From assembly GCA_029264355.1 (NCBI GenBank), contig JARIBW010000012.1:1-47549 (forward strand): a stretch of DNA of 47,549 nt. Direction: 5' to 3'. A program made the translations under genes and the position numbers. Source of the DNA: Collinsella sp. GTDB lineage: Bacteria > Actinomycetota > Coriobacteriia > Coriobacteriales > Coriobacteriaceae. Shown here piece by piece: positions 28,265 to 38,993 of this stretch (position 1 is the stretch's first letter; each line of letters opens with the position of its first letter). The notes below the pieces were generated by a model. The model saw nothing but the letters and a program-made list of their open reading frames with translations, had not been told where the DNA came from and made no database searches.

Positions 28265-31200
28265 ATGATCGACAAGAGGAAGAAACCGACACGCGAGTTG
28301 ATCGGAGGTGGAGGCGCCGAAAGGGGACGGTCGACGGTCGGCGGCACCGAGGCGCGGCCTGTGCGCGGACGGTGGACTCACCCCAGGCCGGACGCCATGC
28401 TCAACGGCAAAGCTCGCATCCTTCTTATATTCATCCTCGTTTCCGCGGCCTTTTGCGCACTCTCGGGTCTCGTGGGGCCCTGGTCGCACAACGCGTTCGC
28501 CGCAGATGGGTACACGCACACATTTCCCAACGGGAACACGGTCGAGGTTCATCCCGACGGGACGGTCACGGGCACGTGCGTGATGTCCGACAACGCCGTC
28601 GTGGGTGGTAAATTCAGCGGAAATGTCACCATGCCGGACGGCAAGACATATCCCGCGCTCTGTTACGAGGTGGTCATCGGTGTGCCAAATCACGGTTTGT
28701 ACCCGGGCCCCTGCGACGGAACCTATCCCTTTGAGGCGAAGCGAAATCCCAACGGCACGTACTTCGTGCTGATCAAAAGTCAAAACGCGGAGGCGGGTGC
28801 GCCGGGCACCGTACCGAGCACCTATCCCTACCAACGCTGTTGCACCAAAGAGTGGAAACTTGTGCTCGACGTGGACGTCGCGTTCGACAAACGCTCCAAG
28901 TCGCCCGACCTGACCGACGGAAACCCAGCGTATGCACTGGGCGGGGCCTCATTCGACATATACGATGCCGCGGGCGAACAAAAAGTGACTTCCATCACCA
29001 TGGATGACGACGGCAAGGCCCGATGCAGGCTCTCGCCCAACAAAAACTATTACGCCGTGGAGACCAAGGCGCCACGGGGTTACAAACTGAACCAAGACCG
29101 CATCCCGTTTCACGTGAACCCACAGGGAACGGAGATCGCATTCGAGGATGCGCCGGGGACCGTCTCCCTTGCCGTTCACAAGCGGGATGCCGCCACGGGA
29201 AGCGGAGCGCAGGAGGGCCTCTCCCTGAAGGGCGCCCAATACGAAGTGACCTCCCTATCTACCCAGGGATGGAAGACCCAGATGACCACGGATGAGCGCG
29301 GTGACGCCTCGGTGACGGGCATTCCCCTGGGCCGGATCTCCGTGGTCGAGACAAAGGCCCCTGAAGGTTATCGGCTCGATTCGACCGTACACACATACGA
29401 GGTGAACGCCGACCAGCTCGGAGCATCCGGCACGTTCGAACTCTCACCCGAGGAGGGTTTTGGTGAAGCGCCGCAAGCGTTCGACATCGAAATCGTGAAA
29501 TACCTCGACAGCGGCGACGATGGTTCCGGTTTGCAAAAACCGGGCGCTGGCGTTCGCTTTGACATCGTCTCCAACTCAACCGGAAAGACCGTCGGATCCA
29601 TCACGACCGACGGGAGCGGGCGGGCGTCGAGCGCGGGCGCTTGGTTCGGCGCGGGCGCGCGTGTCGACGACATCAAGGGTGCCATCCCCTACGATCGAAA
29701 GGGGTATACCGTCCACGAGGACCCCGACAGCACACCCGAAGGCTATCAACCGTGCCCCGATTGGACCATCGGAACAGGTCAAATGACAGATGGAAGCACA
29801 TTGCACTACATCGTCGACAATGATTTTGTCGGATCTCGCGTGCAAATCGTGAAATGCGACGCCACCGACGGTCTGCCCGTCCCACTCGAAGGATTCACGT
29901 TTCAGGTACTCGACAAGGGCAAAAAACCGATATCCCAGGAGATCTGGCATCCAAATCATGCAGTGATGGATACGTTCACCACCGACGCCACGGGATGCGT
30001 CACGCTACCCGAGCCGCTAGAGCCGGGAGCCTATTACATCCGGGAGACGCAAGCCGTGAAACCCTATCTGACCAACGGAGACGAGATCGCATTCGAGATT
30101 TCCGATGACGCCGAGACGCCACCGCTGACCGTTGTGCGCGTCTCGGACGAACGGGCGACTGGATCGGCGTCGATCGTCAAGCGCTGCGCCGACGACGCTT
30201 GCCCGTGGTGTGAAAAGGGAAACGCGATCAAGGGCGCGGGCTTTGCCGTGGTTGCGATGGAAGACATCGTGGGCCCAGACGGCTCCGTCGATATGCCCGA
30301 GGGTGCAGCACTCGAACTCGATCCAACCGACGAGAACGGTGTTTCCAAAATCGATGGACTGCCCCTCGGCAACGGGCGTGCTCAATATGCGTTCATCGAG
30401 GTAAAACCCGCGCCAGGCCATGTTCTCGACCCCACCCCCATTCCATTCACCCTGAGTTGGGTCGACGCGGAAACGCCCGTCGTCGACATCGAGGTGACGC
30501 ACCAGAACGCTCCCAGCAAAACCGTCGTTCACAAGACCGATGTATCCACGGGAGACCCCTTGGCCGGGGCGTTGTTCGACGTTTGGCCGCGGGAGCTTGA
30601 ATTAGAGCCCGACGACACCGCCGGACGGGCGACGAACAGTGGAAGTGCCGGCTCTTTGCTGATCACGAGCTGCGTCGGTGAGCGCGATTGGAATGACGTC
30701 CAGATTCGGCTGGATCAGAGGGTCGACTACGCGCTTGCCAGGGCATCGATTCCCACCGGATACTCCCTGCGCCTCACGCGCACCCCCGGAAAGGATGACG
30801 GGCAAGCGCAGGTTGCCGAGAACGGGGGCGCATGGCGCACCGATAGCGTCACGCTCGGCGGCGATGATGACATGTTGGCACCGGGCACATACCGGATCGA
30901 GCTGCTTGACGCAGACGGTAAGGACGTACAGGCCGACTATGAAAAGGAAATCGAGGTGAAAGCGGGCAACTCGCACCTCATCACATACTCGCCGGGCGTG
31001 TTTGGCATGAAAGGCAGGGTATCCATCGAAACAAAGGAAATCGAACTCGCATCGTACGACACCGATGACTTCGATCTTGACGGCGATCTTGCCATCATCT
31101 CGAATGTCAAACCGGGCTCGTACCGACTGAGCGCGACGTCTGCCACCGACGAGAAGCTGGGCGCGAACACGGATGTTGAGGTTCGCTTCGGCGAGTCGAC

Positions 31201-32965
31201 GCATGTGCAATGGCGTAAATCGGAACTCTATTGCACGGATCACACCCTCGTACCGCTCGGTAAAAAGTTCCTGGACGATGCACTTTCCCATGCGGGCATA
31301 TCAACGGTGACGGACGAGCGCGGAGATATGATCCTGACCCATCTCCCGGCACTTCCGGGCGAGCTCGACGCCCTCTTCAGGCTGGTTGCGCCCGACCAGA
31401 AGCGGCCCGAACTGGGCCAGCCAGACGGGGCGGGCGTGACGGACCGCGCCGACGAACCGCTGACCTGGTGCGTTCAGGAGATGCACGCGCCCGCGGGATA
31501 CATCGCCGATAGGGAGATTCGAACATATGCCACCCAAATCATGCCGGATGAGGAGGGCAACTCCGCTCAACGCATCGACATCGCAAATGATCACACCAAG
31601 GTCGAGATCACGAAGCGCGCGTCAGAGACCGAGGAACCCCTTGCTGGGGCGACGCTCGAACTCACGGACGAGGAGGGCAACGTAATAGAAAGCTGGACAA
31701 GTGCGTCGGAGGCCCATCGCATTGAACGGCTCGAACCGGGCACCTACACGCTGACGGAACTAAAATCCCCCCATACGCACGAGCCCGCGGCGGCACTCAC
31801 GTTCAATGTGAAGCCGACGGCAAGCGTCCAAGCCGTCTCGCTCCATGACAAGCAGATCGTCGTGGCAGGCGACATCGATAAGCGACAGGAGATCGCGAAG
31901 CCCATGGCACCTCACGCTAAGGCCGATGGGGACGGACTCAACCGGGCGGACGCCCGTGATAGCGAAGACGGTTCGTTCTCTTACTCCATCGATTATCGCA
32001 ACAACAGCTCAACCTGGGTTGATGAGTTCACCGTTGAGGACAGCCTCGATGCAGCCGCGAGCGGAATGGCCGAACTGACGGGGATCACCACCGGACAGGC
32101 GGAAGGAGATTACGACGGGAAGCTCAACGTCTGGTATCGCACGAATCTCGATCATGAAGGCGGTGCGGGAGAGGCCGTCGCAAATGCGACGCTCGCGGAC
32201 GGGCATGTGAACCCCTGGCTCCACGATCAGACGGTTGCGGATGGCATCGGCGAGGACGGACGAGCGAGCAGCTACGAGGAATGGAGGCTGTGGAAGAAAG
32301 ACGTATCGACCACCGAATGTACATTCCTGCCCGTCTCCGAGCTCCCGCTCGAATCAGATGAGGTCATCACCGGCATCCGTCTCGAATACGGCTGCGTGAG
32401 CAAGGACTTCACATCGAGACCCGACCAATGGGACGGCGTGAACGTCAAGCAGCAGCATGACGATTGGAATCCCGTTCCACCCACCCACGGACAGATGCCA
32501 GGCGCTGAAGAAGGGACAGCGACTGCATATGCACCGACGTTAATCCACATGCACGCATTGCCTTCATACGCCGGGGGATGCTCGGTCGACAACCGTGCGC
32601 ATGTTTCGCTCTATCGCAACGGAGGTGGCGAAGGACTTGAAGCTCATGACGAAGACGCCGTTCATCAAGAGGCGGGAACCGTTCCGGCGAGCCCCATCAC
32701 CAGCCTCGATCAAACCGGAGCCGCCACTCTGCTCAGAACCTCAATCGCCCTCTCCATCGCGGGCATCGTCGCCGGGGGTTATCTGCGGCGGCGGAGACGC
32801 CGGCAGCATGTTCGAACGCCGAGCTCTTCTGGCTTGCGCCCTGAGTGCGATAGCGGGAGCCGGATTCTCCGCAATCCAATCGGCGCCGTTGAGCGAAGGC
32901 AGGTTGAGGGGCCTGCGGGAGCGCACCCTGGTCCGTTCGGACGCCGGAAATGGGAATGCCGATGA
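28265..32965 (+). CDS. Giant LPXTG-like surface adhesin with SpaA/Cna-B isopeptide domains
   Basis: A 1566-residue surface protein. Residues 1-48 form an unusually long basic head before the signal segment (51-79, ending HNAFA). Cna-B/SpaA-type beta domains follow, with paired Lys/Glu isopeptide candidates: K209/E266, K306/E362, K412/E485, K530/E594, K639/E712, K757/E1072 and K1117/E1165. The sixth domain is split by about 290 residues containing two PEGA-like units (about 861-985). Residues 1236-1455 resemble the C-terminal domain of clostridial SpaA-like pilins. LDQTG (1481-1485), a hydrophobic segment and six arginines (1508-1513) form a sorting signal. The frame continues 53 residues past the arginines, through the start of the sortase gene. 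GGGAGGG precedes the ATG. Role as adhesin or pilin-like protein is inferred. Confidence 0.88.
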   Translation: MIDKRKKPTRELIGGGGAERGRSTVGGTEARPVRGRWTHPRPDAMLNGKARILLIFILVSAAFCALSGLVGPWSHNAFAADGYTHTFPNGNTVEVHPDGTVTGTCVMSDNAVVGGKFSGNVTMPDGKTYPALCYEVVIGVPNHGLYPGPCDGTYPFEAKRNPNGTYFVLIKSQNAEAGAPGTVPSTYPYQRCCTKEWKLVLDVDVAFDKRSKSPDLTDGNPAYALGGASFDIYDAAGEQKVTSITMDDDGKARCRLSPNKNYYAVETKAPRGYKLNQDRIPFHVNPQGTEIAFEDAPGTVSLAVHKRDAATGSGAQEGLSLKGAQYEVTSLSTQGWKTQMTTDERGDASVTGIPLGRISVVETKAPEGYRLDSTVHTYEVNADQLGASGTFELSPEEGFGEAPQAFDIEIVKYLDSGDDGSGLQKPGAGVRFDIVSNSTGKTVGSITTDGSGRASSAGAWFGAGARVDDIKGAIPYDRKGYTVHEDPDSTPEGYQPCPDWTIGTGQMTDGSTLHYIVDNDFVGSRVQIVKCDATDGLPVPLEGFTFQVLDKGKKPISQEIWHPNHAVMDTFTTDATGCVTLPEPLEPGAYYIRETQAVKPYLTNGDEIAFEISDDAETPPLTVVRVSDERATGSASIVKRCADDACPWCEKGNAIKGAGFAVVAMEDIVGPDGSVDMPEGAALELDPTDENGVSKIDGLPLGNGRAQYAFIEVKPAPGHVLDPTPIPFTLSWVDAETPVVDIEVTHQNAPSKTVVHKTDVSTGDPLAGALFDVWPRELELEPDDTAGRATNSGSAGSLLITSCVGERDWNDVQIRLDQRVDYALARASIPTGYSLRLTRTPGKDDGQAQVAENGGAWRTDSVTLGGDDDMLAPGTYRIELLDADGKDVQADYEKEIEVKAGNSHLITYSPGVFGMKGRVSIETKEIELASYDTDDFDLDGDLAIISNVKPGSYRLSATSATDEKLGANTDVEVRFGESTHVQWRKSELYCTDHTLVPLGKKFLDDALSHAGISTVTDERGDMILTHLPALPGELDALFRLVAPDQKRPELGQPDGAGVTDRADEPLTWCVQEMHAPAGYIADREIRTYATQIMPDEEGNSAQRIDIANDHTKVEITKRASETEEPLAGATLELTDEEGNVIESWTSASEAHRIERLEPGTYTLTELKSPHTHEPAAALTFNVKPTASVQAVSLHDKQIVVAGDIDKRQEIAKPMAPHAKADGDGLNRADARDSEDGSFSYSIDYRNNSSTWVDEFTVEDSLDAAASGMAELTGITTGQAEGDYDGKLNVWYRTNLDHEGGAGEAVANATLADGHVNPWLHDQTVADGIGEDGRASSYEEWRLWKKDVSTTECTFLPVSELPLESDEVITGIRLEYGCVSKDFTSRPDQWDGVNVKQQHDDWNPVPPTHGQMPGAEEGTATAYAPTLIHMHALPSYAGGCSVDNRAHVSLYRNGGGEGLEAHDEDAVHQEAGTVPASPITSLDQTGAATLLRTSIALSIAGIVAGGYLRRRRRRQHVRTPSSSGLRPECDSGSRILRNPIGAVERRQVEGPAGAHPGPFGRRKWECR

Positions 32966-33536
32966 TTTCGACTGGAAGATGCTCGCGCAAATCAATCCCG
33001 ACATCGTGGGATGGATCCGGGTTTCCGGGACGAGCATCGACTTGCCCGTCGCCCTCCCGCCGCAGGACAAGCCACGTGATTGGTACTTGCACCACGATGC
33101 TTGGAGAAGGTACAGCGATCTGGGTTGCCCCTATCTCGATGTGAGATGCGAAGAACAGGGAGAGCATTTACTTATATTCGGCCACAGGCTGGGTCGCTCG
33201 AACCACATGTTCACCGAGATGGCAGACGCTCACGAGCAACCTGTTTTCGATGCGCTGGGAAGCGCGATTTGGTATAGCCGATGGGGCAACGCGGTATTCG
33301 AGCCGATGCTCTCCCTTGCCGTCGACAAGGACGACGCGCTCATACAGCGGTTTGCATTCGATTCGCCCTCCGACCTGAAAGGCTGGTTGTCCACACTGCT
33401 CGAACGATCCTCCGCACGCGCAGGGTCGGCAAACGAGATCGCACTACAGGCGCGCCGGGTGCTCACACTCGTCACATGCTCGGAAACGCAACGAGGGGGA
33501 AGGCGCAGGACGCTCGCCGTGTTCGCCGCACGATAA
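32808..33536 (+). CDS. Sortase, class B-like
   Basis: A 242-residue transpeptidase. An N-terminal signal-anchor (about 7-25) is followed by NPDIVGWIRVSGTSIDLPV, YLHHDAWRRYSDLGCPYLD, the catalytic His126 in LIFGHRL, HMFTEMAD, and Cys224 in LTLVTC with basic residues 231-234 supplying the Arg. This pattern is closest to SrtB-type enzymes. It should anchor the adhesin encoded directly upstream to the cell wall or join pilin subunits. ATG at 32808 lies inside the adhesin frame (+1), giving a 158-bp overlap; the ribosome site is weak (GGAGA), so it is probably translationally coupled. Confidence 0.88.
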   Translation: MFERRALLACALSAIAGAGFSAIQSAPLSEGRLRGLRERTLVRSDAGNGNADDFDWKMLAQINPDIVGWIRVSGTSIDLPVALPPQDKPRDWYLHHDAWRRYSDLGCPYLDVRCEEQGEHLLIFGHRLGRSNHMFTEMADAHEQPVFDALGSAIWYSRWGNAVFEPMLSLAVDKDDALIQRFAFDSPSDLKGWLSTLLERSSARAGSANEIALQARRVLTLVTCSETQRGGRRRTLAVFAAR

Positions 33537-33606: not shown

Positions 33607-33819
33607 TTAGCGATCGTCCTCGGATGCATCCCGCATCTCAAACTCGATTTCGCCCAGCTCCTCGTCCTTCTGCTGCTCGGCCTCGGCACGCTCGGCACGA
33701 ACGCTCTCGGGTGTCGACCATATGCTGCCCAAAAAGAACGAAAGGCCAAGACCGAGCAGAGCGGCGACGGTGGCCCCGACGAGATATTGGACCCAATGTT
33801 CCCTGATGAACTGAATCAC
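33607..33819 (-). CDS. Small single-pass membrane protein, function unknown
   Basis: A 70-residue protein: one membrane segment (about 10-32, VQYLVGATVAALLGLGLSFFLG) and a charged Glu/Arg-rich helical tail. GTG start with GAGGGGG close upstream. It begins 23 bp after the M28-like gene ends, in the same direction, so the two are probably co-expressed. The family is not recognised. Confidence 0.7.
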   Translation of the reverse strand: MIQFIREHWVQYLVGATVAALLGLGLSFFLGSIWSTPESVRAERAEAEQQKDEELGEIEFEMRDASEDDR

Positions 33820-33842: not shown

Positions 33843-36764
33843 CTACGAACGACGGATGACCTCGGTCACCACGTCAGACACGACGGCGACATTCTCAAGG
33901 TCGACGTTATAGGGCTGATCTTCCTCAGTGCGAGCAAGCGCGAAGCCTGAACCTTCCACACCGCCGATGGTCAGCGAGCGGAGGCTCATGTTCATCGCAA
34001 CCTGAGCGTCGGTGGTGACATACGGCATGTCAACCGTTGGATACTCGTGATGGAAATCGGAGCTGACGTGCCGGACGAGCTTGGTGATGCGTTTATCTCC
34101 CTTGAGCACCCGCTCCTCACCCTCGGTAGAGAGCATCGCGACCTGACCGGCGCCGACGCTCTCGAGGTTGATGAGGAACACGCCGCGGAGCTTATCTCGG
34201 TGCTCGTCGAGGAAGGCCTGCATGCCCGCGTTCCCGTTCTCGGACGCGCCGGTCGCAACGAACCAGATGTCATGGCCGAGGAGCTCGTCATCACCCATAT
34301 CGGCGATGGCCTCGCGCAGCTCGTCCTCGGACGCATCGCCGAACGGGGCGGCTCCGCCCTTCCAATCATCGTCGTCGAAATTATCCCAAGAGCCGATATC
34401 ATGGCCGCTGCGCTGGGCATCGAAGGAATCGTCCACGCCGAGCCAGTCGCTCATGCTGTCCTCTTCCTTCTTTTTGCGACCGAAAAGACGAGACAGGCCG
34501 CGACGAGGCTTCTCCGGCTCGGGGGCAGGGGCGCTGATGGTCTCGAACGCACCTTCGGGGGCATAGCCCTGCTCGAGCGGATCGGAAGAACTGATGACCG
34601 TGAAGGCGCTGCGCGCCTCGGCGGCCTGCTCATCGAGAACGGGGGCCGTCGAGGGAGGGGTGGCGGGGACGGACGGGGCCATGGGGGCGGCGAAGGGGTC
34701 GACCGGAGTCGACGACGGATCGGGAAGATCGAACAGGGATGCGCGATTGGCGGTCTCGGGCGTGTGGGGCCTGGGCGCCGACGCGGTGCTGGGAACGTTG
34801 ATCACGCGCTGGGGACGGGCAGGGACGGCACGGTTGACCTCGGCCATAAGGGAGTCGACCGTCTCGACCGGCTGAGCGGGCATGGCCACGGTGCCGGACA
34901 GGTCTATCGAGCCGTCATCGGCGGGCATGACAAACATCTGCGTCGCCCCATCGGTGGAAGTCTCCTCGTTCGATCCGTTCGTGAAGGGCTCGGTGGCATC
35001 CTCGATTCCGGCGGCGTCGTCCTGCGCGGCGGGGGCATCCTCGGAATCAGCGACATCGGCGATGTCGATCTTGAAGTCGATGGAGTCGTCCTGGAAATCA
35101 TCGACCACGGGCTGCTCCACCTCACCATCGGGCTCGGGATCGGCTCCATCACTCTCCGCGACGGGCTCTTCCTCTATGACCTCGTATTCAGCCTCGAGGA
35201 TGTAATCATCATCCTCAACGGGCGCGAACGCCTCGACGAAAGCGACGTCGTCCTCCACCTCGTCGGCGGGCTCGAGAACGTCCTGCTCGACAAAAGCCTC
35301 CTCGGCATCGTCGACGTGCTCGTCCGAAGCTTCCCCATCTGCGACGGGCACGGGCTCGTCGACCGGGGCGGGCTCGTCGGTGACGAGTTCAGCAGCCGGA
35401 ACCACGACGGAAGCAGCCGGTGCGTCGCTCTCATACACGAAGGAACAGGACTCGGGCATCATTCCCAAAGCGCGAATGACATCCGCGCCAAAGCGGATAT
35501 TGCCCTCGGAGTTCACCCGGAACGGAAGCTCCTCCTCAGCGGTGTCCAGGTCGAGCTCGGCCTGAGCGGCCCCGTCCTCGGAAGGCTCGTTCGCCACGGC
35601 CCGCTCCTCGATGGAGCGACCGGCGGAATCTTCCTCATCATGTTCGACATCCGCGACGGGAACGGGATCCACGGCCTCAAAGACCGCCGTGCCCTGCTCG
35701 ACGGGCTCGTCTTCGGCGACGATCTCCTCGACATCCGAGTCCTCGTCGGCAAGGTCGGTCTCAACCAAATTAACCGCCGTCATGCCGGCCTCGATCTCCG
35801 CGGCGTCCATCGCGGACGTGGAGCCGAAATCGATGACCTCGACCACATCATCGGCCTCGGGCTGATCATTCTCGTCTCCGCCGATGATCAGATCGCCCTC
35901 GGCGCCCTCCTCCATCTCGTGCGGATAGAAAGCCTGGGCGGCGGCTGCAGTCTCGGCCGCGGCGATGGCCTCTTCGAGGATGCGCTGCTGCTCTGCGAAG
36001 TACTCGTCGGCCGGCTGGTCGGAAGGGAACTCCTCGCCCATCTCATACGGGGCGACGGCGTCCATGACGCCGAGCATGGCGGCCACGGAGGACTTGTTGC
36101 ACACGGCGCCCGTGGTGTAGGGGAGGAAGAAACGGTTGGCGATGATGGCGATACCGTTCGCAAGCGGGACGAGGGCGGCCACGATGGCGAGCATCCACAG
36201 AACGACCTTGGCCGAATCCGGCAGCGGAAGCATGCGCACGATGGCAAAGACAGCCGGGACGACCATGCAGATCGGAAGGAGTTTCACGATAAGCGGGCGA
36301 TAGGCGGCAAATGGCTCGGAGCTCAACAGGTCGACACGTGGGGAGTCGTAGTGAGCCACGACGACGACCGGGCGGTTGCGGGGAGACGCGAGTGGACCCG
36401 TTGCCTTGTGGTAGGCGATGACGTTCTGGCTCAGACCGCCGGAACCGAGGGTGGAGAGCACGGGGCGGCCGGAACGCTCGAGGACGAAGAGGACCGCGGC
36501 GGCGATGGCGAGCAGCAGGCCCAAAATGCCGGCGGGGCCGGCGATGCCGGTTAGCACGGCGCCAATGAACGCCGCGATGCCGAGGGCCGCCTGGACGACC
36601 TTGGCCGAACCGCTCGCGCTGAACTCCTGCACTTCGGGTGCGAAGCCATGGTCGGAAAAGACCCTCGCGATCACATCCGCGGCGGCGCGCTCCTCCTCAC
36701 TGCAAGCAGGGGTGATACCGGTGTTCTGAAGCAGGTGGCTCAGGTATTTCTTCGTATTCGCCAT
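33843..36764 (-). CDS. M28-like membrane protein with large acidic insertion, possibly inactive
   Basis: A 973-residue protein. Residues 1-50 and 110-240 resemble the first half of an M28 metallopeptidase (VVVVAHYDSPR with His138 and Asp140), with four membrane segments at about 55-95 and 157-212. Residues 242-831 are an insertion dominated by Asp, Glu, Ala and Pro. The fold resumes at 832 (DIWFVATGASENGNAGMQAF, VFLINLESVGAG, YVTTDAQVAMNMSLRSLTI). Where M28 enzymes have the bridging Asp (xDNASG) this has CNKSS (222-226), and where they have Glu-Glu it has Ser841-Glu842; the terminal SDH is TDA. It may therefore be a pseudo-enzyme or use altered metal binding. ATG at 36764 has GTGGAG. Confidence 0.75.
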   Translation of the reverse strand: MANTKKYLSHLLQNTGITPACSEEERAAADVIARVFSDHGFAPEVQEFSASGSAKVVQAALGIAAFIGAVLTGIAGPAGILGLLLAIAAAVLFVLERSGRPVLSTLGSGGLSQNVIAYHKATGPLASPRNRPVVVVAHYDSPRVDLLSSEPFAAYRPLIVKLLPICMVVPAVFAIVRMLPLPDSAKVVLWMLAIVAALVPLANGIAIIANRFFLPYTTGAVCNKSSVAAMLGVMDAVAPYEMGEEFPSDQPADEYFAEQQRILEEAIAAAETAAAAQAFYPHEMEEGAEGDLIIGGDENDQPEADDVVEVIDFGSTSAMDAAEIEAGMTAVNLVETDLADEDSDVEEIVAEDEPVEQGTAVFEAVDPVPVADVEHDEEDSAGRSIEERAVANEPSEDGAAQAELDLDTAEEELPFRVNSEGNIRFGADVIRALGMMPESCSFVYESDAPAASVVVPAAELVTDEPAPVDEPVPVADGEASDEHVDDAEEAFVEQDVLEPADEVEDDVAFVEAFAPVEDDDYILEAEYEVIEEEPVAESDGADPEPDGEVEQPVVDDFQDDSIDFKIDIADVADSEDAPAAQDDAAGIEDATEPFTNGSNEETSTDGATQMFVMPADDGSIDLSGTVAMPAQPVETVDSLMAEVNRAVPARPQRVINVPSTASAPRPHTPETANRASLFDLPDPSSTPVDPFAAPMAPSVPATPPSTAPVLDEQAAEARSAFTVISSSDPLEQGYAPEGAFETISAPAPEPEKPRRGLSRLFGRKKKEEDSMSDWLGVDDSFDAQRSGHDIGSWDNFDDDDWKGGAAPFGDASEDELREAIADMGDDELLGHDIWFVATGASENGNAGMQAFLDEHRDKLRGVFLINLESVGAGQVAMLSTEGEERVLKGDKRITKLVRHVSSDFHHEYPTVDMPYVTTDAQVAMNMSLRSLTIGGVEGSGFALARTEEDQPYNVDLENVAVVSDVVTEVIRRS

Positions 36765-37003: not shown

Positions 37004-38059
37004 GTGCACAGCACCACCGCACTCACAAGCGAAACACATCGTGACGCGCCGAAGCCGCCCAGGAGGGTCGAGGGTGCGCGCAGGATGCTCAACCTCCTAT
37101 TCTCCCTGCACGTTTCACCTCGACCGCTCACAACGAGCGAGATCGTCGACGACCCCGAGATCGGATACGCGGGCAAAAAATCGGCGGCGCGCGACAGCCG
37201 TTGCAGGGCATTTAGACGCGACCGCGAAACACTCGCCGAACACGGGGTTCACATCCAAGAAGTCCCCCCGCGATTCGCGGGGGGCATTGCGGTGACCGAG
37301 GAGGGCGCCTGGGCCATCGACCGCGAGCGGACGCACGCCACCCAGGGGGTCCTCTCACCATATGACGCCGAGGAGGTCGTTTGCGCCATCGACCAGGTTT
37401 TCGAGCTACACGCCGACGACCCGACCCTCTGGCCGCTGCAAACGGCCCGGACCAAGCTATGCGAGCTCGCGGGCAGAGATCCGTCAAAACCCGAGCAGAC
37501 AGGCGAAAGAAGGGCGGATCTGAAATCGATCTGGAACGCGTTCGGCCGACTCAAACCCATCGAATTCGACTATCGCGACGCGCGAGGGACCGAGAAGAAG
37601 CACATGGTGGACACCTACGGCATGTTCACGCGCGGAACGCATTCCTATCTTGTCGGATTCGACCACGACGCCGGGGGCTTGCGCACGTTCCGCACCGACC
37701 GCATCCTCTCCGCCAAACACGCTCCCGACACGCGCCCTTCCTATACGATCCCCGCCGAATTTGACGTTGCGGGCCATCAGTTCCTGCCGTTCGACTTCTC
37801 CCGTGCGGACGCGACACACTGCACGTTCTCGTTCCCCGCGGGAGTCGCAGTCGAGGAGCTTTCACTCATCACCCAGGGCAGGGGCGAGCTGACCGGCGAC
37901 AACGATGCCTGGACGTGGGATATCGCAGTGCGAGACCTCGATGCCGCGGCGTCCTTCACCCTCGAACGCGCCGGCATGGGCATGCGGGCGTTGGCCCCCC
38001 ACGAGCTCGTGGCGCGCGTTCGCAACCATATCGAAAGGGCGGTGGCCGCACATGAGTAG
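37004..38059 (+). CDS. WYL-domain transcriptional regulator (PafB-like, first of pair)
   Basis: A 351-residue protein. Residues about 25-110 form a winged-helix DNA-binding part (RRMLNLLFSLHVSPRPLTTSEIV). The WYL domain (about 180-265) contains IEFDYRDARGTEKKHMVDTYGMFTRGTHSYLVGFDHDAG and FRTDRI; the C-terminal WCX extension follows. GTG start at 37004 after GGGAAG. It overlaps the second WYL gene by eight bases (ATGAGTAG). Such tandem WYL genes in Actinobacteria (PafB/PafC) activate DNA-damage genes, with the WYL domain proposed to sense single-stranded DNA; that role is inferred here. Confidence 0.85.
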   Translation: MHSTTALTSETHRDAPKPPRRVEGARRMLNLLFSLHVSPRPLTTSEIVDDPEIGYAGKKSAARDSRCRAFRRDRETLAEHGVHIQEVPPRFAGGIAVTEEGAWAIDRERTHATQGVLSPYDAEEVVCAIDQVFELHADDPTLWPLQTARTKLCELAGRDPSKPEQTGERRADLKSIWNAFGRLKPIEFDYRDARGTEKKHMVDTYGMFTRGTHSYLVGFDHDAGGLRTFRTDRILSAKHAPDTRPSYTIPAEFDVAGHQFLPFDFSRADATHCTFSFPAGVAVEELSLITQGRGELTGDNDAWTWDIAVRDLDAAASFTLERAGMGMRALAPHELVARVRNHIERAVAAHE

Positions 38060-38993
38060 CACCGACAAGCGCGCCTTGTCATCCGAAGACCTGCTGCAAA
38101 TCGCACTCAACCTCATGGAGCGCCTGACAACCGCCCCGAACGCCAGCGTCGACGCGGCGTCGTTCGCGCGGGACGCATCCATATCCCCCCGCCAGATGGA
38201 TGAGGTGATCGAGTTGTTGCAGGGAGTCGCCGATGAACGCAGCGGCGCGCACATTGCCCTCGACTACCAGGATGGCGCCATCACCCTCTCCGGCGACGCG
38301 GGTCGTCTGGATCCCGTGCGTCTCAGTCCCGCGGAATCTCTGGCCCTTAGGCGCACGCTCACGGCCTGCAACATCTCCGACGACGTGCGCGAGCGCGTGG
38401 AGGCGGCGCTATGCACCGGCCCCGATGCGGGAGATTTGGGCGAGGCTGGCAAAACCATGGGAGGCGATCGACTGCTCGGCGGGTTCTACCCCGTCATATC
38501 GGAGGCCATCGCCATCGGCGCTCGACTCTCCATCGACTACCGCGCCGGCGAGGAACCCGGACCGAGTGCGCGCCTGGTCGACCCAAAACTCATCGAGGTT
38601 TCCGGCGATGCGGCATATCTCGTGGCCTGGAACGTCGAGAAAGATGCCCAACGCAGCTACCGCCTCGATCGCATCGCGAGAGCCGAGATCACCGACGATT
38701 CCGTTGAGCGCCATGATTTCTCCCCGTATTCCGCCGCCGAGAGCCTGCGCGCGCACGGCGAGGATGCAGCCTTGCGCTTCGCGAGCCGCGAGGATCTTGC
38801 GATGCGCGACTGGGAGGGCATCCATTGGGACACCGCATGCGAGCGGGATGGGCGCGGTGTGGCGATCCATGTCAGCTACACGTCCGAGTCCTGGCTCTTC
38901 TCCCAGATCGTGGCCGCGGCGGGATCCATCACCATCGAGGGGCCCGAAAGTCTGAAACAGCGCTTCTCAGCGTGGGCGAGGTCCCTACTTTAA
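38052..38993 (+). CDS. WYL-domain transcriptional regulator (PafC-like, second of pair)
   Basis: A 313-residue protein with a helical N-terminus (SSEDLLQIALNLMERLTTAP, SISPRQMDEVIELLQG), a linker (LSPAESLALRRTL), and a WYL domain (LSIDYRAGEEPGPSARLVDPKLIEVSGDAAYLVAWN, YRLDRIARAEI). The central motif reads AYLVAW rather than WYL. A WCX-like domain ends the protein. It is translationally coupled to the first WYL gene and probably forms a heterodimer with it. It ends at a terminator convergent with the helicase gene. Confidence 0.85.
   Translation: MSSTDKRALSSEDLLQIALNLMERLTTAPNASVDAASFARDASISPRQMDEVIELLQGVADERSGAHIALDYQDGAITLSGDAGRLDPVRLSPAESLALRRTLTACNISDDVRERVEAALCTGPDAGDLGEAGKTMGGDRLLGGFYPVISEAIAIGARLSIDYRAGEEPGPSARLVDPKLIEVSGDAAYLVAWNVEKDAQRSYRLDRIARAEITDDSVERHDFSPYSAAESLRAHGEDAALRFASREDLAMRDWEGIHWDTACERDGRGVAIHVSYTSESWLFSQIVAAAGSITIEGPESLKQRFSAWARSLL

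Follow-up and report, generated by a model that had tools for sequence, protein, structure and literature searches.

M28 aminopeptidases such as the Vibrio/Aeromonas proteolytica enzyme (1amp), YwaD/BSAP of B. subtilis (6hc6) and LapA/LapB of Legionella have intact active sites, are soluble and, in most cases, are secreted. In nicastrin, nicalin and the transferrin receptor, an inactive, membrane-anchored domain of the same fold serves in binding or assembly; these domains are lumenal or extracellular and lack a long disordered insert between the catalytic strands. The pseudopeptidases described so far are mostly animal proteins. M28 is not mentioned in the text of a review from 2024 that treats inactive homologs of metallopeptidases (PMC11266112), and no description of the protein analyzed below, or of M28 pseudopeptidases of Coriobacteriia, was found in the literature that we covered, from which subscription journals are mostly absent.

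The DNA analyzed here (hereinafter, the window) is a stretch of 47,549 nt from Collinsella sp. (contig JARIBW010000012.1), to which all coordinates refer. On its minus strand, it contains a gene (33843..36764) for a 973-aa protein that, judging from the open frame, the homologs and the dN/dS values, appears to be a membrane pseudopeptidase of the M28 fold with a disordered insert. The gene is intact, with an ATG at 36764, a stop codon at 33843 and a GGAG sequence ~8 nt upstream of the start, and the closest named relative of the protein is found in Collinsella intestinalis DSM 13280 (82–83%). The Pfam profile Peptidase_M28 (PF04389) covers only residues 830–966, with 31 bits against a cut-off of 21.3, compared with 63–71 bits for the intact relatives, so that the profile evidence for membership in peptidase family M28 comes from the C-terminal half; this is the sole protein of the genome above the M28 cut-off. 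The N-terminal half is recognized via homologs. No NCBIfam model matches the protein, a sequence search of the full-length protein against solved structures gave nothing significant, and the solved structure of YwaD was reached by sequence only from a compact relative (L128). That Pfam detects the C-terminal half alone might suggest an assembly or gene-calling artefact in which two genes were fused around a low-complexity stretch. The data already contradict this reading, and we put its probability close to nil: both halves align with homologs across the whole class Coriobacteriia and lie in one frame throughout the class, one-contig genomes included, and the N-terminal half completes the M28 fold.

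The two halves of the fold (both minus strand) correspond to residues 1–237 (36054..36764), which include both transmembrane hairpins and are delineated by the class-wide alignment, and to residues 828–973 (33846..34283), to which the Pfam match belongs. The pLDDT of the AlphaFold core is mostly 70–89, with ~80 for most of the C-terminal half. With VIA-align, the core gave Z 22.5 against LapB (242 residues, rmsd 2.9 Å) and Z 21.9 against the prototype 1amp; the structure matches listed are M28 aminopeptidases and, also with the M28 fold, glutaminyl cyclases and further zinc exopeptidases. Thus, the M28 alpha/beta fold is present, as seen in a model of moderate confidence. A second model, with a distant homolog as the query, gave the same picture, both models being built from alignments of only seven sequences. 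The first hairpin (36480..36599, minus strand) consists of TM1 (residues 56–74) and TM2 (77–95), with hydropathy values of 2.1 and 2.6 and model helices at 53–71 and 77–97, and precedes the central strands. The second hairpin (36138..36293, minus strand), with TM3 (158–176) and TM4 (191–209), is also seen in hydropathy, with model helices at 156–176 and 183–212, and is inserted between the strand of H138 and the equivalent of the DNASG sequence. These four hydrophobic segments agree with the description of the protein as membrane-embedded in the original prediction, which was made from the sequence alone. The two hairpins, the insert that follows the DNASG helix and precedes the next strand, and the WLGVD..IGSWDNF motif together characterize a class-wide orthologous group of membrane M28 proteins of Coriobacteriia, to which the window protein belongs. 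Given that there are two hairpins, all large parts lie on the same side of the membrane. No signal peptide is evident, and Lys+Arg average 1.9–2.3 beside TM2 and TM3, compared with 0.06 and 0.9 for the loops connecting the arms of the hairpins. In view of the lack of a signal peptide and the positive charge on the side of the dome, the M28 dome and the insert are predicted to face the cytoplasm.

The active site positions were mapped onto the Vibrio/Aeromonas enzyme, in which they are H97, D117, E151, E152, D179 and H256. In the alignment with intact relatives, H138 (36351..36353; this and the following positions on the minus strand), the first metal ligand, is kept, as are D140 and E842. The bridging Asp of DNASG is replaced by C222 (36099..36101), a Cys found in 48 of 50 Coriobacteriaceae loci. 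The catalytic Glu and the adjacent ligand Glu are represented by S841-E842 (34239..34244), the Glu-Glu pair being present in none of 62 Coriobacteriales. The ligand Asp is conservatively replaced by E868 (34161..34163), and the last ligand His by R945 (33930..33932). The set of five metal ligands (His, Asp, Glu, Asp/Glu, His) is therefore broken at C222 and R945, and the catalytic Glu is lost at S841. The changes read in the original prediction as CNKSS, Ser-Glu and a missing final His are precisely those found in the alignment, and its outline of a split M28-like protein with an altered site holds for the intact 973-aa product, whose fold (Z ~22) is divided by the insert. The window protein is homologous to M28 and is not, in the Collinsella lineage, an M28 enzyme of known mechanism.

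The pattern of replacement differs among the relatives. The last His is lost in three of nine complete Coriobacteriaceae proteins (those of the window genome, of C. intestinalis and of L183), and most Coriobacteriaceae retain His, the conserved Cys, Glu, Glu and His, so that residual metal binding by Coriobacteriaceae proteins is possible, as judged from these residues. We rejected the possibility that the catalytic Glu is lost in all Coriobacteriales because, in the census, most Eggerthellaceae retain the first Glu, the second being lost. In one other family (f5), most members retain the Asp and have lost the Glu, and in another (f6), the Glu is mostly replaced by His. Overall, in Coriobacteriales, the Asp is replaced by C, N, S or Y, the Glu by S, H, G, D or Q, and the last His by G, R, A, K and others, and the H138 position is lost in 18 of 62 sequences. 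An Atopobiaceae-like protein (L174) has all the metal ligands and is missing the catalytic Glu alone; accordingly, weak or altered activity might be possible in this protein.

Homologs were sought at the phylum level across 150 genomes, and a residue census of 103 sequences at seven positions indicates where the site was lost. All seven positions are retained in 0/62 Coriobacteriales, 0/6 members of three families (f11, f13 and f14), 16/19 sequences from other orders of the class and 3/16 sequences from outside it. A rooted tree of 90 sequences, computed with the seven ligand columns excluded, has at its root (support 99) compact relatives from beyond the class in which the site is intact and the insert absent; the intact members of the class branch next, basal to the sequences with a lost site, and Coriobacteriales form a single clade (100), sister to the above three families (99). 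The distribution of intact and lost sites over this tree requires at least three changes, and the alignment and the tree reveal separate losses in two further families (f12 and f19). The main loss, a matter of one or two events, is placed in the common ancestor of Coriobacteriales and the sister families. The tree order and the presence of the insert together with an intact site in other orders imply that the insert predates site loss. The insert length is 119–267 residues in the other orders, 94–375 in the three sister families and 240–1270 in Coriobacteriales; thus, strong growth of the insert is specific to Coriobacteriales and is not tied to the loss itself. The possibility that the insert causes or accompanies inactivity was likewise rejected, given the 16 of 19 homologs from other orders in which the insert coexists with an intact site.

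The insert of the window protein spans 590 residues (~238–827; 34284..36053, minus strand), is absent in the compact relatives and is acidic in composition, with 153 Asp+Glu and only 24 Lys+Arg among the 575 residues from 246 to 820 (net charge of about −129). The pLDDT is below 50 over residues 279–777, and the model built from the other query agrees on disorder. The description of a 590-residue acidic low-complexity insertion is accurate with respect to size and charge and falls short at the end of the insert, which is a highly conserved motif. This class-conserved motif, DWLGVDDSFDAQRSGHDIGSWDNFDDDDWKGG (residues 773–804; 34353..34448, minus strand), is supported by pattern, profile and dN/dS; its 32 residues conform to the consensus WLGVD..FDA...G..IGSWDNF..D..WKGG, which is detected by pattern in 69 of 87 class members, from Collinsella to the orders with intact enzymes, and its Gly, Trp and Phe positions are conserved like much of the M28 core. 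When a profile of the motif was run against ten genomes, the M28-like gene was the sole strong match in nine, and no strong match was found in the tenth; one further, weak match is present in the window genome (E = 0.018). The motif is mostly lost in some homologs from Atopobiaceae and from another family (f7) and hence is not the only conserved role of the protein. Neither model placed the motif on the core with confidence (motif pLDDT ~40–48).

Further elements are found along the insert, all on the minus strand. The element RFGADVIRALGMMPESCSFVY (residues 424–444; 35433..35495) is related to G(V/M)(V/M)PEG..L.Y, which was detected by pattern in 37 of 87 class members; RASLFDLPDPSSTPVDPF (residues 674–691; 34692..34745) is confined to Coriobacteriales, with 17 of 62 matching by pattern; the earlier elements PE(G/S)..Y and LFDLPDPS are conserved in subsets; and, near the end of the otherwise acidic insert, there is a basic patch, RRGLSRLFGRKKK (residues 754–766; 34467..34505). 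The insert, as read from its sequence, is organized as motifs rather than filler, and conserved islands in a disordered acidic chain, as we infer here, are the usual mark of partner-binding motifs.

The repeated loss of functional residues, including the separate cases in f12 and f19, could be taken as a sign that the gene is decaying or non-functional. The observed selection and retention contradict this reading, which we consider highly improbable. Homologs are present in 200 of 201 good genomes of the order Coriobacteriales and in 266 of 268 of the class, and none of the matches listed in the order and class searches contains an internal stop. In comparisons with three Collinsella relatives, dN/dS is 0.03–0.13 for the core halves, 0.14–0.29 for the insert outside the motif and, where calculable, 0.01–0.09 for the motif (0.01 against C. 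intestinalis), all these being rough values, with one motif comparison saturated and several dS above 1.

The gene neighborhood is variable. A 70-aa single-span membrane protein is encoded 23 nt downstream of the M28-like gene (33607..33819, minus strand), possibly in the same transcript, and its relatives adjoin the M28-like gene in Coriobacteriaceae only. Upstream, a DinG helicase and two divergent WYL regulators are frequent. In the window, two tandem WYL-domain regulators (37004-38993, plus strand) are divergent from the M28-like gene and located beside a DinG-type exonuclease-helicase; roughly half of the loci have such a regulator pair close to the M28-like gene. In 16 loci from many families (e.g., L097 5490-6365 and L112 3431-5074), the gene directly upstream encodes a membrane protein that contains an extended helical region; this protein has no significant Pfam match and is absent from the Coriobacteriaceae and Atopobiaceae-like loci examined. 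Genes for GGDEF, Lit-like and TrkA-like proteins are found downstream in other orders. No neighbor accompanies the gene everywhere, so we claim no functional link from the neighborhood. Also encoded on the plus strand of the window (28265-33536) is a 1566-aa protein that contains SpaA (prealbumin-like) repeats; the protein after it matches class B sortases, and the two resemble a surface adhesin accompanied by a dedicated sortase.

We hypothesize that the protein is a membrane-anchored, cytoplasm-facing M28 pseudopeptidase that functions as a docking platform, with a disordered arm presenting putative partner-binding motifs, and assign this reading a probability of roughly 0.6. In the evolutionary order computed here, the outgroup form is a compact membrane aminopeptidase of ~380–440 aa with four transmembrane segments and intact ligands; a motif-bearing disordered insert is already present at the base of Coriobacteriia; the site was then eroded, in one or two events, in the ancestor of Coriobacteriales and the sister families, with selection persisting on the fold, on the membrane hairpins and on the motif of the insert; and the growth of the insert in Coriobacteriales came after the erosion. 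For the present-day protein, we infer a dome placed on the inner face of the membrane that would no longer hydrolyze peptides and a long negative arm that would extend into the cytoplasm and hold at least one partner via the conserved motif; binding of an N-terminus or a metal in the former substrate groove may persist as part of the docking role. The proposal that the protein is a pseudoprotease, made in the original prediction, is strengthened on three counts: three of the six functional residues are lost, the full set is lacking in all 62 Coriobacteriales, and the protein is under purifying selection in its altered form. The additional suggestion of a scaffold or sensor acting through the acidic loop, with a putative partner or signal, is plausible and better founded now that class-conserved motifs are found in the loop. 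More tentatively, and with less than even odds, the protein could be a class-defining membrane hub in which a hypervariable acidic arm of the cytoplasmic pseudopeptidase presents a conserved docking motif to a putative core partner; in this view, the arm was acquired by a still active enzyme and later became the selected function.

Two readings compete with the docking platform. The site might bind one or two metals through H138, C222, E842, E868 and, where it is kept, the last His, with changed or weak catalysis, for example, on a special N-terminus. The prevalence of Cys222 and of the last His in Coriobacteriaceae fits such an altered enzyme, as does the retention of all ligands in L174, and the title of PDB entry 2anp calls a Glu151-to-His mutant of the prototype aminopeptidase functional. 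However, the window protein itself lacks the bridging Asp, the catalytic Glu and the last His, and the differing substitutions across Coriobacteriales suggest that constraint was relaxed and not that a new catalytic set arose, which makes this reading unlikely. Still less probable, in our view, is a sensor, in which the pseudo-active groove would bind peptide N-termini or a small molecule and signal via the disordered arm. The retained fold is compatible with it, and pseudopeptidases frequently act by binding according to the 2024 review (PMC11266112), but several groove positions, including H138, vary, and the protein has neither an output domain nor a conserved signaling neighbor.

Within a single bacterial class, these proteins form a natural, well-sampled series in which a membrane peptidase first carried a disordered, motif-bearing insert and one large branch then lost the active site, the protein still being almost universally retained, so that the change from an enzyme to another role can be studied. 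The series also draws attention to a protein that is unstudied although nearly universal in bacteria common in the human gut, such as Collinsella, Eggerthella and their relatives.

Compared with the M28 aminopeptidases 1amp, YwaD/BSAP and LapA/LapB, the window protein shares the fold over 240–250 residues and has its altered site at the equivalent position; unlike them, it combines a broken site with two added membrane hairpins, a long disordered insert and a dome that is probably cytoplasmic. Other actinobacterial classes have compact membrane M28 proteins (L128, L130 and L133) that form the tree outgroup; these share the core and have equally placed transmembrane segments but are only 381–437 aa long, with intact ligands and no insert. 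Other compact paralogs from these classes (L127, L129, L132, L135, L139 and L140) have the membrane M28 fold with the ligands lost, the pattern N-D-D-G-x-D-R/K and no insert; some share a genome with an intact copy (G407 and G438), and, by their sequences, they seem to have been inactivated separately, as a second case within this type of membrane M28 protein. The likeness to nicastrin is only broad, an inactive fold used for binding. In pseudopeptidases of the nicastrin/nicalin type, the lumenal or extracellular domain belongs to a membrane complex of several subunits; the predicted topology of the window protein is cytoplasmic, and we do not claim membership in that group.
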